Part shown: piece by piece, positions 5,643 through 21,237 of the stretch | Position numbering within the stretch: the stretch's first letter is position 1 | Layout of the letters: every line of letters starts with the position of its first letter | NCBI RefSeq assembly: GCF_003325375.1 | Contig: NZ_CP030862.1 | Coordinates: 4,777,501 to 4,841,500, forward strand | DNA length: 64,000 nt | DNA from: Streptomyces globosus | Lineage (GTDB): Bacteria > Actinomycetota > Actinomycetes > Streptomycetales > Streptomycetaceae | Reading direction: 5' to 3' | Position numbers and translations under genes: made by a program | Notes under the pieces: generated by a model | Database searches by the model: none | The model's input: the letters and a program-made list of their open reading frames with translations, nothing else | What the model was told of the DNA's origin: nothing

Positions 5643-5715
<73 letters not shown>

Positions 5716-5754
5716 CTGAGTGGGGGATCTTCCCGAGATACCCTGCAACTCCGA

Positions 5755-5825
5755 GGTGGAGTGGCCGAGAGGCGAGGCAACGGCCTGCAAAGCCGTCTAC
5801 ACGGGTTCAAATCCCGTCTCCACCT
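5755..5825 (+). tRNA. tRNA-Cys(GCA)
   Basis: Acceptor stem GGTGGAG (5755-5761) pairs with CTCCACC (5818-5824), and the discriminator is T, as expected for tRNA-Cys. The anticodon loop CTGCAAA presents GCA, and the T arm is CGGGTTCAAATCCCG. The genome happens to read CCA at 5826-5828, so the 3' end may be encoded. Second gene of the cluster. Confidence 0.96.
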
Positions 5826-5829
5826 CCAA

Positions 5830-5901
5830 GGACGATTAGCTCAGCGGGAGAGCGCTTCCCTGACACGGAAGAGGTCACTGGTTCAATCCCAGTATCGTCC
5901 A
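5830..5901 (+). tRNA. tRNA-Val(GAC), copy 1
   Basis: Acceptor stem GGACGAT pairs with ATCGTCC (5894-5900), discriminator A. The anticodon arm CTTCCCTGACACGGAAG presents GAC. It differs from the next two valine tRNAs only at acceptor positions 2 and 3 and their partners, so base pairing is preserved. It starts one base after the CCA of tRNA-Cys, so it is processed from a common precursor. Confidence 0.96.
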
Positions 5902-5920
5902 CAGGATCTTCGGATCCCCC

Positions 5921-5992
5921 GCGCGATTAGCTCAGCGGGAGAGCGCTTCCCTGACACGGAAGAGGTCACTGGTTCAATCCCAGTATCGCGCA
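5921..5992 (+). tRNA. tRNA-Val(GAC), copy 2
   Basis: Acceptor stem GCGCGAT pairs with ATCGCGC (5985-5991), discriminator A, anticodon GAC. All 72 bases are identical to copy 3. Confidence 0.96.
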
Positions 5993-6040
5993 CGCAGTAC
6001 CTGCAACACCGTTTCACCTGCGGCTGCACAGCCGTGGCCC

Positions 6041-6112
6041 GCGCGATTAGCTCAGCGGGAGAGCGCTTCCCTGACACGGAAGAGGTCACTGGTTCAATCC
6101 CAGTATCGCGCA
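6041..6112 (+). tRNA. tRNA-Val(GAC), copy 3
   Basis: Identical in all 72 bases to copy 2, with the same GCGCGAT acceptor stem and GAC anticodon. Last gene of the cluster; a strong hairpin begins seven bases downstream. Confidence 0.96.
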
Positions 6113-10693: not shown

Positions 10694-11929
10694 TCAGGTC
10701 GCGGGGGCCGCCGCGACGCGGACGACCTCGCCGATGACGATGACGGCCGGCGGGCGGACGTCCTCGGTGCGGACCCGCTCGCCGACGGTGGCCAGGGTGG
10801 CGTCGACGCGGCGCTGGTTCGCGGTGGTGCCCTCCTGGACGACGGCGACCGGGGTGTCGGCGGGGCGGCCGTGGCGGACGAGGGCCTCGGCGATCAGGCC
10901 GATCTTGTCGACGCCCATCAGGACGACGAGGGTGCCGGTGAGCCGGGCGAGCGCGGCCCAGTCCACCAGGGAGCGCGGGTCGTCGGGGCCGACGTGTCCG
11001 CTGACGACGGTGAACTCGTGGGCGACGCCTCGGTGGGTGACCGGGATGCCGGCGGCGGCGGGCACCGAGACGGAGCTGGAGATGCCGGGGACGACGGTGC
11101 AGGCGATGCCGGCCTCGGCGAGGGCCTGGAGCTCCTCCATGCCGCGGCCGAAGACGTACGGGTCGCCGCCCTTGAGCCGGACGACGGCCTTGCCGGCCTT
11201 GGCGTGCTCGACGAGGGCGTTGTTGATGGCCTCCTGGGCCATGTAGCGGCCGTACGGGATCTTCGCGGCGTCGATGACCTCCACATGCGGGGGGAGCTCG
11301 TCGAGGAGGTCGCGGGGGCCGAGCCGGTCGGCGATGACGACGTCGGCCTCGGCGAGGAGCCTCCTGCCGCGGACGGTGATCAGGTCGGGGTCGCCGGGGC
11401 CGCCGCCGACGAGGGCGACGCGGGGCCCGCCCTCGGCGCGGCGGCGGTGGCCGGGCGCGGCGAGGGTGCCGTCGCGCAGCCCCTCGACGACGGCGTCGCG
11501 GACGGCCGCGGAGCGGCGCGGGTCGTTGCCGGTGAGCACGGCCACGGTGACGCCCTCGACGCGGCCGGTGGCCGGCGTCCATGCGGTGGCGGCGGAGGCG
11601 TCGTCGGCGCGGACGCACCAGACCCGCTCGCGCTCGGCCTCGGCGGACGCCTGCTCGTTGACCTCGCGGTGCTGGGTGGCGATCAGGGCGTACCAGGCGC
11701 CGGCGAGGTCGCCCTCGCGGTAGCGGCGGCGCTCCCAGCGGATCTCGCCGGTCTCCGCCATGGCGTCGACGGACGGCGTGGCGGACGGCGAGACGAGCAG
11801 GATGTCGGCACCCGCGGCGACGAGCGCGGGAAGGCGGCGCTGGGCGACCTGCCCGCCGCCGATGACGACGACGCGGCGGCCGGCGAGGCGGAGGCCTACG
11901 GGGTACGCGGGGTGTGCCGGATGTGCCAT
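10694..11929 (-). CDS. cobA: Bifunctional precorrin-2 dehydrogenase-like / uroporphyrinogen-III C-methyltransferase
   Basis: Makes precorrin-2 from uroporphyrinogen III, feeding cobalamin and possibly siroheme. The 411-residue protein has two parts, as in CysG. An N-terminal NAD-binding domain (LAGRRVVVIGGGQVAQRRLP near residues 10-30) resembles precorrin-2 dehydrogenase. A C-terminal SUMT domain from about residue 168 shows VALVGGGPGDPDLITVRG, RLKGGDPYVFGRGMEE and VVPGISSSVSVPAAAGIP. ATG at 11929 has AGGAG about ten bases upstream. CobL and BluB-CobT genes lie just upstream on the same strand. The symbol could equally be cysG, since the N-terminal domain is siroheme-type. Confidence 0.9.
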   Translation of the reverse strand: MAHPAHPAYPVGLRLAGRRVVVIGGGQVAQRRLPALVAAGADILLVSPSATPSVDAMAETGEIRWERRRYREGDLAGAWYALIATQHREVNEQASAEAERERVWCVRADDASAATAWTPATGRVEGVTVAVLTGNDPRRSAAVRDAVVEGLRDGTLAAPGHRRRAEGGPRVALVGGGPGDPDLITVRGRRLLAEADVVIADRLGPRDLLDELPPHVEVIDAAKIPYGRYMAQEAINNALVEHAKAGKAVVRLKGGDPYVFGRGMEELQALAEAGIACTVVPGISSSVSVPAAAGIPVTHRGVAHEFTVVSGHVGPDDPRSLVDWAALARLTGTLVVLMGVDKIGLIAEALVRHGRPADTPVAVVQEGTTANQRRVDATLATVGERVRTEDVRPPAVIVIGEVVRVAAAPAT

Positions 11930-12074
11930 GGCGGTGCGGCTCCTGGGACGGCGGTGGTCTGCTGCCGCTGCTGCGCTGGAGCGGCCTGTCCGGTGTGACG
12001 TGCGGTTTCGGGTGTGCGAGTCCACGATACGACCCGGCCCGCCGACCGCTGCGCGGGGCCTTTCGGACCACGCG

Positions 12075-12213: not shown

Positions 12214-15200
12214 CTACTTCTCGGTGACTCCCGCGGAGTCGAACGTGGCGACCTCGTGCATCGCGCGGGCAGCGCTCTGCACCAGCGGGAGGGCGAGGAG
12301 CGCCCCGGTGCCCTCGCCGAGCCGCAGGTCCAGGTCGACGAGCGGCCGCAGGCCGAGCTTGTTGAGCGCGGCGACGTGCCCGGGCTCGGCGCTGCGGTGC
12401 CCGGCGATGCACGCGGAGAGCGCCTCGGGGGCGATGGCCCGGGCCACCAGCGCGGCCGCTCCGGCGCTGACGCCGTCCAGGATGACGGGCGTGCGCAGGG
12501 AGGCGCCGCCGAGGAGGAGGCCGACGATCGCCGCGTGCTCCAGACCGCCGATGGCCGCGAGGACGCCGATGGGGTCCGCGGGGTCGGGCTGGTGCAGTTC
12601 CAGGGCGCGGCGGACGACGTCCACCTTGCGGGCGTGGGTCTCGTCGTTGATGCCGGTGCCGCGGCCGGTGACCTCCGAGGGGTCGGCGCCGGTGAACACC
12701 GAGATGAGGGCGGCGGAGACCGTGGTGTTCGCGATGCCCATCTCACCGGTGAGCAGGGCCTTGTTGCCGGCGGCGACGAGGTCGCGGGCGGTCTCGATGC
12801 CGACCTCGATGGCCGCGACGGCCTCTTCCCGGGTCATCGCGGGGCCTGCGGTGAGGTCGGCGGTGCCGGGGCGGACCTTGCGGGGCAGCAGGCCGGGGGT
12901 GGCCGGGAGGTCGCCGGCGACGCCCACGTCGATGACGCAGACCTCGGCGCCGACCTGGTTGGCGAAGGCGTTGCAGACGGCGCCGCCGCCGAGGAAGTTC
13001 GCCACCATCTGCGTGGTGACCTCCTGCGGCCAGGGGGTGACGCCCTGGGCGTGCACGCCGTGGTCGCCGGCGAAGATCGCGACCGCGGCGGGCTCGGGGA
13101 TCGGCGGCGGGCAGACCCGGGACAGCCCGGCGAGCTGCGCGGAGATGATCTCCAGCATGCCGAGGGCGCCGGCGGGCTTGGTCATGCGCTTCTGCCGCTC
13201 CCAGGCCTCGCCGAGCGCCTTGGCGTCGAGCGGGCGGATGCTGGCGACGGTCTCGGAGAGCAGGTCGTGCGGCGCCTCGCCGGGCAGGGCGCGGCGGCCG
13301 TACGTCTCCTCGTGGACGACCCAGGCGAGCGGCCGGCGCTGCGACCAGCCGGCCTGTGCGAGCTCGGGCTCCTCGGGGAACTCGTCGACATATCCGACGC
13401 ACAGGTAGGCGACGACTTCGAGGTGTTCGGGCAGGCCGAGCTCGCGGACCATCTCGCGCTCGTCGAAGAAGCTGACCCAGCCGACGCCGAGGCCCTCGGC
13501 GCGCGCGGCGAGCCAGAGGTTCTCCACGGCGAGCGCGGAGGAGTACGGGGCCATCTGCGGCTGGGTGTGCCGGCCGAGGGTGTGGCGGCCGCCGCGGGTG
13601 GGGTCGGCGGTGACGACGATGTTGACGGGGGTGTCGAGGATGGCCTCGATCTTCAGTTCCTTGAACTGCTTGGCCCGGCCCTTGGGCAGCGACTTGGCGT
13701 AGGCCTCGCGCTGGCGCTGGGCGAGCTCGTGCATCGTGCGGCGGGTCTCGGCCGAGCGGATGACGACGAAGTCCCAGGGCTGGGAGTGGCCGACGCTGGG
13801 CGCGTGGTGCGCGGCCTCCAGGACGCGCAGCAGCACCTCGTGCGGGATGGGGTCGGTGCGGAAGCCGTTGCGGATGTCGCGGCGCTCGCGCATGACCCGC
13901 AGGACGGCCTCGCGCTCGGCGTCGGCGTAGCCGGGGGCGGCCTCGCCGGCGGGGGCGGCGGGCTCCTGCGGCTCGGCTCCCTCGGCGGGCGCCGGGGCGG
14001 CGGCTTCGGCGGCGGCCGGGTCCGCGGGGGCCTCGGCCGGGGCCGGGGCCTCGGCGGGGGCGTCCGCCTGGGCGGCGGGCTCGGCGGCCGGGACGGGCTC
14101 GTCGACAGGCTGCGCGGCTGCGGGCGCGGCTGCGGCCGGCTGGACGACGGCTTCGGCGGGCTGCTCGGGGGTCTGGGGCGCCCCGGGCGCCTGTTCCTGC
14201 TCGGCGGGAGCCTGCGCGGCGAGCAGCTGCCCGGCGGCGGGGGCGCCCTCGGCGGCGGCCTCCGGCGCCGCGGGGGCGTCGGCCTGGACGGCCTCGGCGG
14301 GCTGCGCGGGGGCGGCGGCTTCGGCTGCCTCACCGGGAGCGGCCTGCTCGGCGGGCGCCTCGGCGGCCTGCGGGTCCGCGGGAACGGCCTGCGGGACGGC
14401 GACCGGCTCGGCGGGGGCCTCAGCCGCCGGCGCCTCCGCGGCGGGCGCCTCTGCGGGGGCCTCCGCGGCAGGAGCCTCGGCGGCCTCCGGCTGGGCCACG
14501 GCCTCCGGCTGTACGACCTCGGGCTGTACGGCCTCGGGCTGTACGGCTTCCGGCTGCGGGGCCTCGGGGACCTCCGCACCGGCCTCGGGCGCAGGGACGG
14601 CCTCAGGGGCGGGAACGGCCTCGGCAGCCGGTGCGGCTTCGGGGGCGGCGGCCTCCACCACCGGGGTGGCCTCCGGCGCGGGAGCGGCTGCGGCCTCGGC
14701 CTCGGGGGCCGTCTCGGGCGTCTCGGCCGTCACTGCCGCCTCAGGCGCCGGGACGGGCTGCGCCTGCTGCTCCGGGTGCGGCTGCGCCTGCTCCGGGGCG
14801 GGCTGCGGCTGCGCCTGCTCCGCGGCGGGGAACGCCTGCGCGGCGGCGGGCTGTGCCGCGGGCACCGGTTCGGCGCCCCAGGGCACGCCGGCCTGCGGCG
14901 GGACCTCGCCGAGCTGCGGGGCCGCCTGTGCAGGGACGTCCTGCCGGGGCACGTCCAGGTATTCGGGGCCGGTGGTCGGCGGGCCTGCCTGGCGCATGGG
15001 CATGGGCGGGACGGGGGCGCCCAGCGGCGCGGTCGGGGCGGGCGGCACGGGGGCGGCCGGGCCGCGGTCGGCGAGGGAGCGGACCACTCCGGTGGCCTCG
15101 GGCACGGCGGGGCCCATGTGCAGCGGCCGGCGGGGCGGGGCGGCGGGTGCGGCGGGCGCGGCGGCGTGCGGCGGCACCATCCCGCCGAGGTCCAGGGAGC

Positions 15201-15591
15201 CGGAGTCGCGGCCCCCGGCCTCGTGCACGCCGGCGCCGTACGAGGCGTCGGCGGGGTCGGGGAAGGCGGCCGGCGCGGGGTGGGCGGGTCCGGCGTAGGC
15301 GGCGTGCGGGTCGGCGTAGTCGGCGTAGTCGGCGTAGGGGGCGTCGCCGTAGGAGGTCTCGACGGGGTAGGCCGGCGCCGGCGGGACCACCTGCGGGTCG
15401 CTCCACGAGCCGTGGCCGTGGCCGCTCGGCATCAGCAGGAGTTCCTCGTCCTCGGCCTCGGCAGGGTTGTCCACGAGGTCCTGGAAGGCGTAGGCGCCCG
15501 GCTGCGGGACCTGAGCCGGAATGCCCTGCTGGTCCACCATGCCCGCGTTGTCCGGGAGTCCCTCGCCCGGTACCTGGCCGGTGTCGGTCAT
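12214..15591 (-). CDS. cobT: BluB-CobT fusion with long disordered N-terminal extension
   Basis: A 1125-residue protein in three parts. Residues 1-555 are low complexity, rich in Ala, Pro, Glu and Gln, with short near-repeats such as PEAVQPEAVQPEVV and APAAEAPAAEAPAE. Residues about 557-770 are a flavin nitroreductase of the BluB type (VMRERRDIRNGFRTDPIPHE, APSVGHSQPWDFVV, ENLWLAARAEGLGVGWVSFF), which makes the lower ligand 5,6-dimethylbenzimidazole. Residues about 780-1125 are CobT (RQKRMTKPAGALGMLEIISA, IFAGDHGVHAQGVTPWPQEV, GEMGIANTTVSAAL), which links it to nicotinate mononucleotide. ATG at 15591 has GAGGGG seven bases upstream. CobT alone is about 350 residues, so the fusion could channel the ligand. 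I have a memory of similar long CobT proteins in related species. Confidence 0.9.
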   Translation of the reverse strand: MTDTGQVPGEGLPDNAGMVDQQGIPAQVPQPGAYAFQDLVDNPAEAEDEELLLMPSGHGHGSWSDPQVVPPAPAYPVETSYGDAPYADYADYADPHAAYAGPAHPAPAAFPDPADASYGAGVHEAGGRDSGSLDLGGMVPPHAAAPAAPAAPPRRPLHMGPAVPEATGVVRSLADRGPAAPVPPAPTAPLGAPVPPMPMRQAGPPTTGPEYLDVPRQDVPAQAAPQLGEVPPQAGVPWGAEPVPAAQPAAAQAFPAAEQAQPQPAPEQAQPHPEQQAQPVPAPEAAVTAETPETAPEAEAAAAPAPEATPVVEAAAPEAAPAAEAVPAPEAVPAPEAGAEVPEAPQPEAVQPEAVQPEVVQPEAVAQPEAAEAPAAEAPAEAPAAEAPAAEAPAEPVAVPQAVPADPQAAEAPAEQAAPGEAAEAAAPAQPAEAVQADAPAAPEAAAEGAPAAGQLLAAQAPAEQEQAPGAPQTPEQPAEAVVQPAAAAPAAAQPVDEPVPAAEPAAQADAPAEAPAPAEAPADPAAAEAAAPAPAEGAEPQEPAAPAGEAAPGYADAEREAVLRVMRERRDIRNGFRTDPIPHEVLLRVLEAAHHAPSVGHSQPWDFVVIRSAETRRTMHELAQRQREAYAKSLPKGRAKQFKELKIEAILDTPVNIVVTADPTRGGRHTLGRHTQPQMAPYSSALAVENLWLAARAEGLGVGWVSFFDEREMVRELGLPEHLEVVAYLCVGYVDEFPEEPELAQAGWSQRRPLAWVVHEETYGRRALPGEAPHDLLSETVASIRPLDAKALGEAWERQKRMTKPAGALGMLEIISAQLAGLSRVCPPPIPEPAAVAIFAGDHGVHAQGVTPWPQEVTTQMVANFLGGGAVCNAFANQVGAEVCVIDVGVAGDLPATPGLLPRKVRPGTADLTAGPAMTREEAVAAIEVGIETARDLVAAGNKALLTGEMGIANTTVSAALISVFTGADPSEVTGRGTGINDETHARKVDVVRRALELHQPDPADPIGVLAAIGGLEHAAIVGLLLGGASLRTPVILDGVSAGAAALVARAIAPEALSACIAGHRSAEPGHVAALNKLGLRPLVDLDLRLGEGTGALLALPLVQSAARAMHEVATFDSAGVTEK

Positions 15592-15726
15592 GCGTACCCC
15601 TCGCCCATCGTGTTGCCTCTTCGATCGCCCGGCGCCCACAAGACCAACGAGCGGGGTTGCCGTGCGACGCGTCGTCCGCGTACGCACCCTGCGACAACCA
15701 GTAAGCATTGTCGCGCCCGTTCGCCG

Positions 15727-15843: not shown

Positions 15844-17046
15844 TCAGGCCCGGTGGTTCACCGGGCGCCGGGCTGCCAGGAGGAACACGACGGTACGGTC
15901 CTGTTCGCTCCAGGTGAGGGGGTCGAGCCCGACGGACTGCAGGAGGGCGCATTCGACGGCGTATCCGCCCTCGGCGAGGGCCCGGCCGATCGCCTCGGCC
16001 TCGTCGCGGGTGGAGGCGTGGCTGACGATCCGTTCGGGGCGGCGTTCGGCGACTGCCGCGACGACGTCGGCGCCGCCGCCGCCGACGCGGACGACGTCGG
16101 GTTCGGGGAGGTCCTCCAGGACGTGCGGGGCGCGGCCTGCGAGGACCTGGAGCTGTACTCCGCGGGCGCGGGCGGCGGCGGCCGTGCGCTCGCAGGCCTG
16201 CGGGTCGGCGTCGACGGCGATGACGGCGGCCCCGAAGGCGGCGGCCTCGACGGCGAAGGCGCCGGAGCCGGCGCCGATGTCCCAGACGAGGTCGCCGGTG
16301 CGCGGGCCGAGCCGGGCGAGCTGTGCGGCGCGCAGGGTGGCCGACTCGCCTTCGCCGGTGCCGTCCTGGGGGCGGGCCCAGCCGCGTTCGGCGGTGCGGG
16401 CGGGGTTCTGGCCGAGGATCCAGGCGGGGTCGGCGGAGACCGTCTGGCCGCCGATGACGATGACGACGTTGGGGTTGCGCCAGGTGTGGTCGGCGGCCTT
16501 GTCGGAGGTGACGACGGTGACCTGCTCGCGGGCGGTGCCGAGTTCCTCGCAGATGACGAAGGTGCGGTGCACGGGCCCCAGCAGCAGGGCGAGTTCGGCG
16601 GGTCCGGCGCCGGGCGAGGTGAGGACGGCGACCTTGCCGTGGGCGCGGCAGACGTTGACGGCACGGCGCAGGGTGCGGGGGTGGGCGACGACGACCTGGG
16701 CGTCGTCCCAGGGCATGCCGGCGCGGGCGAAGGCGGCGGCGACGGAGGAGACGGCGGGGACGACCTCGACCTCCAGTCCGTGCTCGGGGGCGCGCAGGGT
16801 GCGGACGACGCCGAAGAAGCCGGGGTCGCCGTCGGCGAGGACGACGGCGCTGCCGCGGTGTCCGGCGATGCGGCGGGCGGCGAGGCCGAGGCTGCCGAGG
16901 CGGATGCGTTCGGCGGCGGGCGGCACCTCGGGGAGGGCGAGGTGGTGGGCGGCGCCGGCGACGAGGGTGGCGGCGGAGAGCGCGGAGCGGGCGGCCGCGG
17001 TCAGGGGGGAGCCGTCCCAGCCGATCACCGTGACCCGGTCGGCCAT
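15844..17046 (-). CDS. cobL: Precorrin-6Y C5,15-methyltransferase (decarboxylating), CbiE-CbiT fusion
   Basis: Methylates precorrin-6Y at C5 and C15 and decarboxylates the acetate side chain in cobalamin synthesis. The 400-residue protein has an N-terminal tetrapyrrole methylase domain of the CbiE type (VTVIGWDGSPL, VVLADGDPGFFGVVRTL, VEVVPAVSSVAAAFARAGMP) and a C-terminal CbiT domain from about residue 235 with the Rossmann SAM motif VWDIGAGSGAFAVEAA and AVDADPQACERTAA. ATG at 17046 is preceded by AGGAGA about ten bases upstream. BluB-CobT and CobA are encoded downstream on the same strand, separated by a hairpin-bearing gap. The length and domain order agree with CobL. Confidence 0.93.
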   Translation of the reverse strand: MADRVTVIGWDGSPLTAAARSALSAATLVAGAAHHLALPEVPPAAERIRLGSLGLAARRIAGHRGSAVVLADGDPGFFGVVRTLRAPEHGLEVEVVPAVSSVAAAFARAGMPWDDAQVVVAHPRTLRRAVNVCRAHGKVAVLTSPGAGPAELALLLGPVHRTFVICEELGTAREQVTVVTSDKAADHTWRNPNVVIVIGGQTVSADPAWILGQNPARTAERGWARPQDGTGEGESATLRAAQLARLGPRTGDLVWDIGAGSGAFAVEAAAFGAAVIAVDADPQACERTAAAARARGVQLQVLAGRAPHVLEDLPEPDVVRVGGGGADVVAAVAERRPERIVSHASTRDEAEAIGRALAEGGYAVECALLQSVGLDPLTWSEQDRTVVFLLAARRPVNHRA

Positions 17047-17128
17047 CGTCGTCTGTCTCCTGGGGTGGTGGGGGGAAGGGCGGTCGGGGGCCGGTCGTGC
17101 CGCCGGGGCGGCCCGGCGGGGCGGGGCG

Positions 17129-17809
17129 TCAGTTCCAGTCTGCGCCGACGCGCAGGCCGCCGGTCTCGACGGGGCGGGCGAGGGCGTTGCCGTAGCCGTA
17201 GCCGTCGGAGGCACCGTACGCGTCGGCGTCTTCGAGGTCCTCGGGCAGCAGGCTCCAGACGATGAGGTCGGTGCGGGCGTGGCTCCAACTGCCGTCGCCG
17301 TTCTGGATGCGGGCTATCCAGGCGTTGCGCAGGACGCCTTCGCTGATGCAGCCGATCTTCTGGGCGACCTGCTGGGAGGCGGTGTTGTCGGCGGCGGTGC
17401 GCATTTCGAGGCGTTCGAAGCCCAGGTCGCGGAAGAGCCACTGGGCGACGGCGAGGACGGACTCGCCGGCGTAGCCCTCGCCGCGGGCCCAGGGGGCGGT
17501 GATGTAGGCGGCCTCGGTGCTGCGGGTGCGCCAGTCGGTGTTCTTCAGGTGGACGGTGCCGACGAGGCGCTGGGTGAGGAACTCGGCGACGGCGAAGACG
17601 ATGCCGCGGCCGCTGGTGCGTTCGGCGTGGGAGTGCCGGGTGGCCCAGCCGTGGGCGTCGGCGTGGGTGTAGGGGTGCGGTGCGGGGGTCCAGGCGGTGA
17701 CGTGCTCGTCGTTCATCATCTCGGCGAGCGCGGTGACGTCCTCCACGTCGAAGGGGCGCAGCACCAGCCGGTCCGTGCTGATGGTGACGTCCGGGAAGGT
17801 GGTAGTCAT
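17129..17809 (-). CDS. RimJ/RimL-type GNAT acetyltransferase
   Basis: A 226-residue GNAT protein that resembles ribosomal-protein or Ala N-acetyltransferases: TDRLVLRPFDVEDVTALAEM at the N-terminus, AAYITAPWARGEGYAGESVL as the CoA loop, and FERLEMRTAADNTASQQVAQ followed by KIGCISEGVLRNAW as the C-terminal signature. ATG at 17809 is chosen because GGAGCTG lies just ahead; a further ATG four codons upstream has no site. The last 30 residues (DADAYGASDGYGYGNALARP and onward) extend past the usual fold. It sits between metQ and cobL, with a terminator separating it from metQ. Confidence 0.87.
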   Translation of the reverse strand: MTTTFPDVTISTDRLVLRPFDVEDVTALAEMMNDEHVTAWTPAPHPYTHADAHGWATRHSHAERTSGRGIVFAVAEFLTQRLVGTVHLKNTDWRTRSTEAAYITAPWARGEGYAGESVLAVAQWLFRDLGFERLEMRTAADNTASQQVAQKIGCISEGVLRNAWIARIQNGDGSWSHARTDLIVWSLLPEDLEDADAYGASDGYGYGNALARPVETGGLRVGADWN

Positions 17810-18030: not shown

Positions 18031-18894
18031 TCAGGAGGCGGGGGTGCCGAAGGCCGGGGTGACGGAGCCCTGGTACTTCTCCTCGATGAACGCGCGGACC
18101 TCGTCGGAGTTGAGGAGCTTGGCGAGCTTCTGGACGCGCGGGTCCTTCTCGTGGCCTGCCTTGACCGCGAGGAAGTTGGCGTACGGGTTGCCCTCGGACT
18201 TCTCCAGGACGAGGGCGTCCTTGGCCGGGGAGAGCTTCGCCTCCAGGGCGTAGTTGCCGTTGATGACGGCGGCGTCGACGTCGTTCAGGGCGCGCGGGAC
18301 GGTGGCGGCCTCCAGCTCCTTGAACTCCAGGCCCTTCTTGTCGGTGATGTCGGACAGCTTGGCGCTGGTGCCGACGCCCTCCTTGAGGGTGATCAGGTTG
18401 TTGGCGGCGAGGAGCTGGAGGGCGCGGCCCCCGTTGGTGGTGTCGTTGGGCACGGCGACGGTGTGGCCGGGCCGGAGGTCCGTGACCGCCTTGACCTTCT
18501 TGGAGTAGAGGCCGAGGGGCTCCAGGTGCACGTTGGCGACGGGCACGATGTGGGTGCCGTTCTTCTTGTTGAAGTCGTCGAGGTACGGCTTGTGCTGGAA
18601 GTAGTTGGCTCCGACCTGGCCCTGCTCGGTGGCGGTGTTGGGCAGGACGTAGTCGGTGAACTCCTTGACCTCCAGCTTGAGGCCCTCCTTGGCGGCCAGC
18701 TTGTCCTTGACGAAGTTCAGGACGTCGGCGTGCGGGCTCGGGGAGGCCGCGACGACGAGGGGCTTGCTGTCGTCGGCTGCACCGCCGGACGCGGCGGAGG
18801 AGGAGGGGTCGGAGGCGCTGCCGCATGCGGTGAGGCCGAGGGCGAGGGCTGCGGTCGCGGCGGCGAGGAGGGTGGGCTTGGTGTTCTTACGCAC
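18031..18894 (-). CDS. metQ: Methionine ABC transporter substrate-binding lipoprotein
   Basis: The methionine-binding component (NlpA family) that delivers D/L-methionine to MetNI. The 287-residue precursor has a signal peptide with lipobox LTAC, so Cys24 would be lipidated after cleavage. The mature part has the NlpA pattern: VVAASPSPHADVLNFVK, LEVKEFTDYVLPNTA, NYFQHKPYLDDFN, HLEPLGLYSKK and AVPNDTTNGGRALQLL. It is last in a metN-metI-metQ order with 126 bases between metI and metQ, and a terminator follows. Confidence 0.94.
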   Translation of the reverse strand: MRKNTKPTLLAAATAALALGLTACGSASDPSSSAASGGAADDSKPLVVAASPSPHADVLNFVKDKLAAKEGLKLEVKEFTDYVLPNTATEQGQVGANYFQHKPYLDDFNKKNGTHIVPVANVHLEPLGLYSKKVKAVTDLRPGHTVAVPNDTTNGGRALQLLAANNLITLKEGVGTSAKLSDITDKKGLEFKELEAATVPRALNDVDAAVINGNYALEAKLSPAKDALVLEKSEGNPYANFLAVKAGHEKDPRVQKLAKLLNSDEVRAFIEEKYQGSVTPAFGTPAS

Positions 18895-19020
18895 GAAGAG
18901 TGCCTTTCATTGCGGTGCAAGTGCGCGGGTCGTGCGCAGGTCTTGCAGGTGGTGGCCCAAGCACGACAAGTGCGGGCTTTCGGGGGGTGGGTGGTTCGGG
19001 GGCCGCCGGGCGGGCCGGTG

Positions 19021-19689
19021 TCAGGCCGTGCGGCCGCGGCGGGCGAGGAGGCGTACGGCGCCGTCGCCGATGAGCTGGATCACGGTGACGAGGGCGATGA
19101 GGACGGCGACGGTGGCGAGCATGAAGCCGGTCTCGAAGCGCTGGAAGCCGTAGGTGACGGCCTTGGAGCCGAGGCCTTCGCCGCCGACGGCGCCGGCCAT
19201 GGCCGAGTAGCCGACGAGGGTGATCAGGGTGGTGGTCACGGCGGCGACGAGCGAGGGCAGGGCCTGGGGCAGGAGCACCTTGGCGACGATGGTCGGGACT
19301 CCCCCGCCCATGGACTCGACGGCTTCGACGAGGCCGTGGTCCACCTCGCGGACGGCGGTCTCGACGAGGCGGGCGAAGAAGGGGATGGCGCCGATGGCCA
19401 GCGGGACGATCATGGCGGTGGGGCCGATGAAGGTGCCGACGACGGCGGTCGTGACCGGGATCAGGGCGATCAGCAGGATGATGAACGGCAGCGAGCGGCC
19501 GATGTTCACGACCACGCCGAGGACCTTGTTGAGCGGCCGGTTCTGCAGGAGGCCGCCCTTGTCGGTCAGGACGAGGAGGATGCCGACGGGCAGGCCGCCC
19601 AGCACGGTGACGAGGGTGGACCACAGCACCATGTAGAGCGTGTCGTACGTGCCCTGGGTGAGCAGGGGCTGCATCTCGGACCAGGTCAC
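19021..19689 (-). CDS. metI: Methionine ABC transporter permease
   Basis: The membrane subunit of the methionine importer. The 222-residue protein has about five hydrophobic helices and the permease EAA-type loop VEAVESMGGGVPTIVAKVLL, which contacts MetN. It starts with GTG at 19689 inside the metN stop (GTGA overlap), so translation is coupled to metN. An internal ATG five codons later (MQPLLTQGTYDTLY) is an alternative start. PFIILLIALIPVTTAVVG and SAMAGAVGGEGLGSKA are typical of MetI. Confidence 0.94.
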   Translation of the reverse strand: MTWSEMQPLLTQGTYDTLYMVLWSTLVTVLGGLPVGILLVLTDKGGLLQNRPLNKVLGVVVNIGRSLPFIILLIALIPVTTAVVGTFIGPTAMIVPLAIGAIPFFARLVETAVREVDHGLVEAVESMGGGVPTIVAKVLLPQALPSLVAAVTTTLITLVGYSAMAGAVGGEGLGSKAVTYGFQRFETGFMLATVAVLIALVTVIQLIGDGAVRLLARRGRTA

Positions 19690-20744
19690 TTGGCACCTTC
19701 CTTGACGAGTTCGGCGATCTCGGTGTCGAGGTCGGGGCCGGCGGTGTCGACGGGCTCGACCTGGAGGCCCTGTTCGCGCAGGAAGCCGACGGGCACGACG
19801 TTGTCCTCGTAGCGGCCGGGCAGCTCGATGCGCATGCGGCCGACCTGGCGTCCGCCGACGGTGTCCATCGCGGCGCCGAGGATCGAGATGTCGATGTTGT
19901 AGGTCCGGGACAGCTGGGAGATGACCGGCTGGGTGGCGGCGTCCCCGTGGAAGGTGACGTCGACGACCGTGCGGTCGGGGCCGCCGGCGGCGCCGGTGAG
20001 GGGGAACAGCTCCTCGGCGAGCTCGGAGCCGGGGGTGGCGAGGAGTTCGGCGACGGTGCCGGACTCGGTGATCCGGCCGCGCTTCATGAGGGCGGCGGAG
20101 TCGCAGACGGTCTTGACGACGTCCATCTCGTGCGTGATGAGCAGGACGGTCAGGCCGAGGCGCTGGTTGAGGTCGCGCAGCAGCTGGAGGATGGAGCGGG
20201 TGGTCTCCGGGTCCAGGGCGCTGGTGGCCTCGTCGGAGAGGAGCACCTTGGGGTCGCCGGCGAGGGCGCGGGCGATGCCGACGCGCTGCTTCTGACCGCC
20301 GGAGAGCTGGCCCGGGTAGGCCTTGGCCTTGTCGGCGAGGCCGACGAGGTCGAGGAGTTCGAGGGCCTTGCGGGAGCGCTCGCGGGAGGGGGTGCCGAGG
20401 ATCTCCAGGGGGAGTTCGACGTTGGCCTGGACGGTCCGCGAGGACAGCAGGTTGAAGTGCTGGAAGACCATCCCGATGCGGCTGCGGGCCTCGCGGAGCT
20501 CCCGGCCGGCGCGGCGGCCGCGGCCGGCGAGGGCGGTGAGGTCGACGCCGTCGACGGTCACGGTGCCGGAGGTGGGGCGCTCCAGCAGGTTGACGCAGCG
20601 GATGAGGGAGGACTTGCCGGCGCCGCTCTGGCCGATGACGCCGAAGACCTCGCCTTCGCGGACATGGAGGTCGACGCCGTCCAGGGCGGTGACCTCGCGG
20701 CCACGGGACTGGTAGACCTTCGTGAGGCCCGATGTGGTGATCAC
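19686..20744 (-). CDS. metN: Methionine ABC transporter ATP-binding protein
   Basis: The ATPase of the methionine importer, 352 residues. Walker A is GQSGAGKSSL, the signature is LSGGQKQRVGIARAL, Walker B is VLLSDEATSALD and the switch histidine is in LLITHEMD. The C-terminal NIL domain (about 275-340, with QPVISQLSRTYNIDISILGA) lets internal methionine inhibit transport. GTG at 20744 begins the conserved ITTSGLTKVYQSRG; an upstream in-frame codon at 20807 would add 21 residues unlike the family. First gene of the operon; it overlaps metI by four bases. The long upstream region is described separately. Confidence 0.95.
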   Translation of the reverse strand: MITTSGLTKVYQSRGREVTALDGVDLHVREGEVFGVIGQSGAGKSSLIRCVNLLERPTSGTVTVDGVDLTALAGRGRRAGRELREARSRIGMVFQHFNLLSSRTVQANVELPLEILGTPSRERSRKALELLDLVGLADKAKAYPGQLSGGQKQRVGIARALAGDPKVLLSDEATSALDPETTRSILQLLRDLNQRLGLTVLLITHEMDVVKTVCDSAALMKRGRITESGTVAELLATPGSELAEELFPLTGAAGGPDRTVVDVTFHGDAATQPVISQLSRTYNIDISILGAAMDTVGGRQVGRMRIELPGRYEDNVVPVGFLREQGLQVEPVDTAGPDLDTEIAELVKEGAK

Positions 20745-21237
20745 AGGATTTCCGTCGCTGTCGAGTGCGCGGCGCAGCAGTGTGCGCTGGGCGCCGTGCA
20801 CGGGCAAACATCTGGGGCGCGATACGGGTCAAACCGGATTCATGCGGCGGTTTCCACGTAGGCGCGGGGCAGGAGCGGTCCGTTCCGTCCTGCGGGGCAG
20901 GTGCGGGGCGGACGGGCTCGGCCGGTCTCGCTTCGGGGCGCGGGACGGGTGGAGAGGGGCCCTCAGAAAGCGCACATTCGACACATACAACGAGCACCGG
21001 GCGTCATCGTCGCCTCGGTCGCAAGGGTGCGGCTGCTCGTCGTGGTCATGGGCCCCAGTAAACCAGACATATCCCTTGACCGATCAATTATGTCCGAATA
21101 GCGGACGATCATGAGTCGGATACCGGACACGGCCGGTCGCCTCCGGACACCCCGCCCTCACGGTCCGGCGGGCCGTGCGCGGCGGCCCGCGCAGGGGCGC
21201 GCGCAGCCGCTCCCCCGGCCCGTAATACGCTCGCTGC
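20745..21237. other. Divergent intergenic region upstream of metN
   Basis: About 490 bases between metN (minus) and a small membrane-protein gene (plus). I looked for a SAM riboswitch on the minus strand and see no GGCAACC-type core. The interval 21060-21110 is unusually AT-rich for this genome and contains TTGACC (21076-21081) followed after 17 bases by TAGCGG, a possible plus-strand promoter. The inverted repeat and spaced CGGAC elements around it are given separately. Confidence 0.45.
21092..21148. promoter_or_regulatory. Putative operator: palindrome plus evenly spaced CGGAC half-sites
   Basis: GTCCG at 21092-21096 and CGGAC at 21102-21106 form a perfect palindrome with a 5-base spacer. 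CGGAC recurs at 21124-21128 and 21144-21148, so the three copies are 22 and 20 bases apart, about two helical turns each. The second copy also belongs to GTCGGATACCGGAC, which resembles the first palindrome. Likely a binding array for one regulator serving metN, the membrane-protein genes, or both. Confidence 0.4.

Follow-up and report, generated by a model that had tools for sequence, protein, structure and literature searches.

A BluB-CobT fusion protein of Streptomyces globosus with a long, predicted disordered N-terminal half

Results

The bluB-cobT gene and its surroundings

The window analysed here is a stretch of 64,000 nucleotides from Streptomyces globosus (contig NZ_CP030862.1, positions 4,777,501 to 4,841,500). 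A single open reading frame on its minus strand fills positions 12214 to 15591 exactly, running from an ATG at 15591 to a stop codon at 12214 without an internal stop. It is flanked by two genes of corrin synthesis on the same strand. The first-pass annotation of this DNA was silent on the strand and on the N-terminal half of the protein. The features discussed below are:

10697 to 12025, minus strand: downstream neighbour, CysG/CobA-like uroporphyrinogen-III C-methyltransferase
12214 to 15591, minus strand: bluB-cobT fusion gene, 1125 amino acids (open frame and family profile matches)
12226 to 13227, minus strand: CobT domain, residues 789-1122 (TIGR03160 profile)
13228 to 13311, minus strand: BluB-CobT junction, residues 761-788 (profile boundaries)
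13312 to 13929, minus strand: BluB domain, residues 555-760 (TIGR02476 profile)
13930 to 15591, minus strand: N-terminal extension, residues 1-554, rich in A, P, E and Q (composition; no family match)
14953 to 15216, minus strand: short conserved motifs GGRDSGSLDL (126-135), RRPLHMGP (154-161), VRSLADRGP (170-178) and GPEYLD (208-213)
15394 to 15591, minus strand: conserved N-terminal block, residues 1-66, MTDTGQVPGEGLP..GAYAFQDL..EDEELLLMPSG..GSWSDP; a single occurrence in the genome
15592 to 15609, minus strand: conserved leader with ribosome-binding stretch, GATGGGCGAGGGGTACGC, directly 5' of the ATG (conservation)
15847 to 17214, minus strand: upstream neighbour, CbiE/CbiT (CobL-like) precorrin methyltransferase

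Every base of the 18-base leader GATGGGCGAGGGGTACGC is at least 90% conserved among 71 Streptomyces loci. An alternative in-frame ATG at 15708, which would yield 1164 amino acids, was dropped because this leader sits at the ATG at 15591. An internal start close to BluB was also rejected, given that only 12 of 80 loci have any ATG or GTG plus a Shine-Dalgarno-like sequence there. The plus-strand translation of the interval is stop-free as well, but this is what a GC-rich gene yields when read in antisense, and it was rejected. No cobalamin riboswitch was matched by Rfam in the window at the gathering threshold; the matches were five tRNA genes, clustered on the plus strand at 5643-6112. Genes that by eye resemble metQ, metI and metN of a methionine ABC transporter are located near the corrin genes (18031-20807), and a B12-methionine connection is possible.

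Both enzyme domains are present with their active-site residues

The first-pass annotation had proposed that one polypeptide carries both BluB and CobT, and profile searches of the protein and its relatives bear this out. The NCBIfam profile TIGR02476 (BluB) matched residues 555-760 with 305 bits (cut-off 150) and TIGR03160 (CobT) residues 789-1122 with 418 bits (cut-off 319), both far above the cut-offs and within one intact frame, and the fusion is common to the relatives. Pfam agrees on both domains. An AlphaFold2 model of residues 544-1125, a monomer with two domains, reached a mean pLDDT of 91.9 and a pTM of 0.88. Foldseek matched it to CobT of Thermus thermophilus (1wx1, TMt 0.97) and BluB of Sinorhizobium meliloti (2isj, TMt 0.93), the nearest solved structures. 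While the likeness to these stand-alone enzymes and to S. enterica CobT (1d0s) extends over sequence, fold and active-site residues, they are separate chains without a tail.

Asp572 and Ser707 align with Asp32 and Ser167 of S. meliloti BluB (2isj), which we take to be the catalytic residues; a PMC search for literature on BluB active-site residues gave no match. Both residues and their flanking motifs are intact in the window protein and in every Streptomyces of the alignment. This speaks against the concern that the BluB half might lack its flavin site. In the CobT domain, Glu950, Lys989 and Glu1093 all sit in conserved motifs. We assume Glu1093 to be the catalytic Glu of the GEG motif and Glu950 the acidic residue of the TGEMG motif. 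By the names of the structure matches, S. enterica CobT structures include the mutants E317A and E174A, which presumably probe the GEG and TGEMG acids, respectively.

The fusion is general in Streptomyces and forms two clades

A search of 41 related genomes with the BluB profile alone found BluB in 37, the window included, and in all 37 (36 relatives plus the window) BluB and CobT share one frame. The fusion was likewise present in 80/80 named loci that were retrieved from GTDB genomes and belong almost exclusively to Streptomyces; this set is biased toward the fusion, because the fused protein served as query and the best hits were kept, whereas the search of the 41 genomes is unbiased. Neither a frameshift nor a stop codon between BluB and CobT, considered beforehand as a finding that would speak against the fusion, occurs in the window, the 36 relatives or the 80 named loci. 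As the two domains are joined in 37/37 genomes and 80/80 loci, the fusion is no sequencing artefact, and the earlier guess that it may be lineage-wide is well supported. Across the class, 77 of 198 genomes have BluB. All 16 Streptomyces in this survey have long frames consistent with the fusion. Outside Streptomyces, BluB is joined to CobT in 20 and not in 40 of the 60 loci examined.

Fusion proteins group into two supported clades in the BluB tree, one of the Streptomyces type (100/98) and a second (98/94) that includes proteins like the Propionibacterium freudenreichii fusion, which share little identity with the Streptomyces type and vary in their junction; P. freudenreichii itself was left out of the BluB and CobT trees. 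Measured by profile boundaries, all Streptomyces-type members have a junction of 18-19 residues, and the junctions of the P. freudenreichii-like clade range from 11 to 45. This pattern suggests two independent fusion events. It does no more than suggest them, since the AU test does not reject a grouping of all fused proteins in one clade (p 0.275 for BluB, 0.286 for CobT).

Several of the P. freudenreichii-like BluB domains (L099, L101, L102, L106, L112 and L279) have Thr where the active-site Ser would be expected; the P. freudenreichii fusion described in the literature, if it is of the same kind, is active. In one lineage (L095, L098, L113 and L134; genus g38, family f19), the proteins are still fused and have Gly or Pro at the position of BluB Ser167. 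Their flavin-site motifs are changed, CobT is intact, and each genome has just one strong BluB match. On sequence grounds, it looks as if one half of the fused enzyme is decaying here.

An additional CobT

The S. globosus genome encodes another CobT (L002 1465-2562; L071, G000:C1:5379381-5380385), which scores 331 bits with TIGR03160 against the cut-off of 319 and is 38% identical to the fused CobT. It lies directly 3' of a CobU-like gene, whose open frame is continuous with a metallo-hydrolase-like stretch upstream. The second CobT has an altered motif at the usual position of KPxGSLG. It could activate 5,6-dimethylbenzimidazole (DMB) in place of the fused protein. Lower-ligand choice therefore need not rest on the fusion alone, which weakens the earlier proposal that this choice is tied to one protein.

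The N-terminal half is an acidic, almost lysine-free tail

Residues 1-554 make up half of the window protein, belong to neither enzyme and have no Pfam or NCBIfam match. They carry a net charge of -74 and contain neither Lys nor Cys. From this composition, we regard them as an acidic, lysine-free, low-complexity region that is predicted to be disordered and holds no folded domain. Among the 71 named Streptomyces loci whose start could be recognised, the tail measures 385-1183 residues (median 645) and contains 20 Lys in 48,719 residues. The enzyme part has 2.6% Lys, and the remaining A/P-rich stretches in 464 kb sampled from the S. globosus genome have 0.49%. Arg is also scarce (about 1.3-1.7% vs 7.2% in the other A/P-rich stretches); a p value for the depletion of basic residues is overstated, because the 71 tails are related. 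At 523 residues, the tail is the longest A/P-rich stretch in the 464 kb, the next reaching 178, and it holds many short imperfect tandem repeats. In three Streptomyces loci (L047, L185 and L200), the frame 5' of BluB is broken within the tail, reflecting either an assembly error or a real frameshift.

MTDTGQ opens 71/71 of the Streptomyces tails, a count that is not independent since the motif itself helped to recognise the start. An acidic-hydrophobic motif (EDDDLLLMPG-like) was found in 69, RPLH-GP in 70 and SLADRGP in 66 of the 71 loci. Pairwise dN/dS against nine relatives, estimated by a simple Nei-Gojobori method on imperfect tail alignments, was about 0.25-0.67 for the tail, except for the first 80 residues in one near-identical pair, and 0-0.12 for the BluB and CobT domains. 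The conserved leader and start, the motifs, dN/dS and the scarcity of Lys indicate, on this evidence, that the tail is translated and under constraint.

Beyond the gene itself, nothing in the genome significantly matches the first 75 residues. Other long tails of different sequence occur in families f3 (MVWNDRIEEP..., G/P-rich) and f19 (GGLLDGLPE motif), and families f2, f15, f14, f35, f42 and f25 have little or no tail. Since some fusions of the Streptomyces-type clade are without a tail (L067, f15, f14 and f35), it appears to be lineage-specific and not needed for catalysis.

Discussion

BluB makes DMB from FMNH2 and O2, and CobT converts DMB to alpha-ribazole phosphate. The window protein very probably unites both of these lower-ligand steps of B12 synthesis in a bifunctional enzyme; this is the best explanation of its sequence. 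Its BluB domain would form DMB from reduced FMN and O2, and its CobT domain would transfer the phosphoribosyl group of nicotinate mononucleotide (NaMN) to DMB, giving the nucleotide-loop precursor alpha-ribazole phosphate. We infer these activities from homology, from active-site conservation and from the assays of the P. freudenreichii fusion. The assayed homologue argues for them with less force, in that it is just 34% identical to the S. griseus fusion and its like fall into a different clade. The fusion most likely fixes a 1:1 ratio and would hold the source of DMB beside its only consumer. The acidic, lysine-free tail is most likely a translated, disordered arm, which may keep the enzyme soluble or spaced and dock a partner via its conserved motifs.

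The BluB-CobT fusion itself is already known, including the extra N-terminal part in S. griseus. Deptula et al. (2015) purified the P. freudenreichii BluB/CobT2 fusion and showed both activities (PMC4657239), and in 2023 the fusion served as a means of finding B12 producers (PMC10038948). The first-pass annotation, which knew of no functional description, was therefore mistaken for the family; the S. griseus protein is mentioned in the same article, with an additional N-terminal part of unknown function (PMC4657239). For Streptomyces fusions, we found no kinetic, localisation, expression or functional study in a literature search that was thin on subscription journals. P. freudenreichii BluB/CobT2 (CBL56167.1) resembles the window protein in having the same two enzymes in the same order on a single chain, but it comprises 626 amino acids, has no long N-terminal region and has a proline-rich spacer of about 34 residues; proteins resembling it form the separate clade, in part with Thr for the BluB active-site Ser. 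The S. griseus fusion shares the whole architecture of the window protein, N-terminal extension included, and a S. griseus locus retrieved for this analysis (L191) shows the same start block. While its N-terminus is called a 'protein of unknown function' in PMC4657239, it appears here as a low-complexity, predicted disordered region and not as a domain. New in this study are the character of the N-terminal half, the two fusion clades, the lineage losing BluB and the second CobT in the genome.

That the fusion is merely a convenience of co-expression, and the N-terminal region a neutral low-complexity expansion of the sort common in GC-rich actinobacteria, is conceivable, though we lean against it. 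The tail evolves fast, varies widely in length, contains imperfect repeats and is missing in some proteins of the same clade, as expected under neutrality. However, 52-71 of the 71 Streptomyces retain the start block and several motifs, basic residues are far scarcer than in other A/P-rich stretches of the genome, and the tail is by far the longest of these stretches. Rather unlikely, in our judgement, is true channelling, the direct passage of the ligand that the first-pass annotation had raised as a possibility, in which the fused active sites would hand DMB from BluB to CobT before it equilibrates with bulk solvent. Deptula et al. describe efficient metabolite channelling by the fusion, given that in the presence of NaMN there was no more than trace DMB and 2-3 fold more product (PMC4657239). 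The constant junction of the Streptomyces type and the monomer model (pTM 0.88) are compatible with this, but trace free DMB is equally expected if CobT simply outpaces BluB, and the junctions of 11 to 45 residues in the P. freudenreichii-like clade indicate that the geometry is not conserved across fusions.

A more speculative and improbable extension is that the tail acts as a scaffold which recruits partners, e.g. a flavin reductase or nucleotide-loop enzymes, via its motifs and so organises late B12 synthesis. The tail is kept over hundreds of residues in Streptomyces and is of different sequence in two neighbouring families. The lack of Lys may in addition spare it from pupylation; lysine deserts are reported to be common in pupylating Actinobacteria (PMC10665810). 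Pup is encoded in the window genome, yet the scarcity of Lys may simply reflect the acidic composition, since Arg is depleted too. The proposal that BluB is degenerate and CobT works alone draws on the family f19 lineage, with its Gly or Pro at the Ser167 position, altered flavin-site motifs and intact CobT; it is highly improbable for the window protein, in which, as in all aligned Streptomyces, Asp, Ser and flanking motifs are intact and BluB dN/dS is 0-0.12. Cargo enzymes of family 2 encapsulins have disordered N-termini, and two family 2 (SrpI-like) shell genes are present in the genome (L290 and L291, G000:C1 at about 6338000 and 1085500). One is located beside a methyltransferase and a terpene cyclase resembling 2-methylisoborneol synthase, the other beside a polyprenyl synthase. 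A role of the N-terminal region in loading such a shell is nevertheless extremely improbable: both shell genes lie more than 1.5 Mb from bluB-cobT, each next to other likely cargo, the cyclase motif GLGTASLHWAR is by inspection unlike the BluB-CobT motifs, and the genome contains nothing else that significantly matches the BluB-CobT start block. bluB-cobT thus has neither an adjoining shell gene nor a shared loading motif, the features by which family 2 cargo is recognised.

For the bifunctional enzyme that we favour, a giant motif-bearing, predicted disordered arm makes up the entire N-terminal half of the Streptomyces protein. Which cobamide a bacterium makes, true cobalamin or another, is decided by BluB together with CobT, and the two fusion clades offer a natural comparison for the question of whether fusion itself improves the use of DMB.
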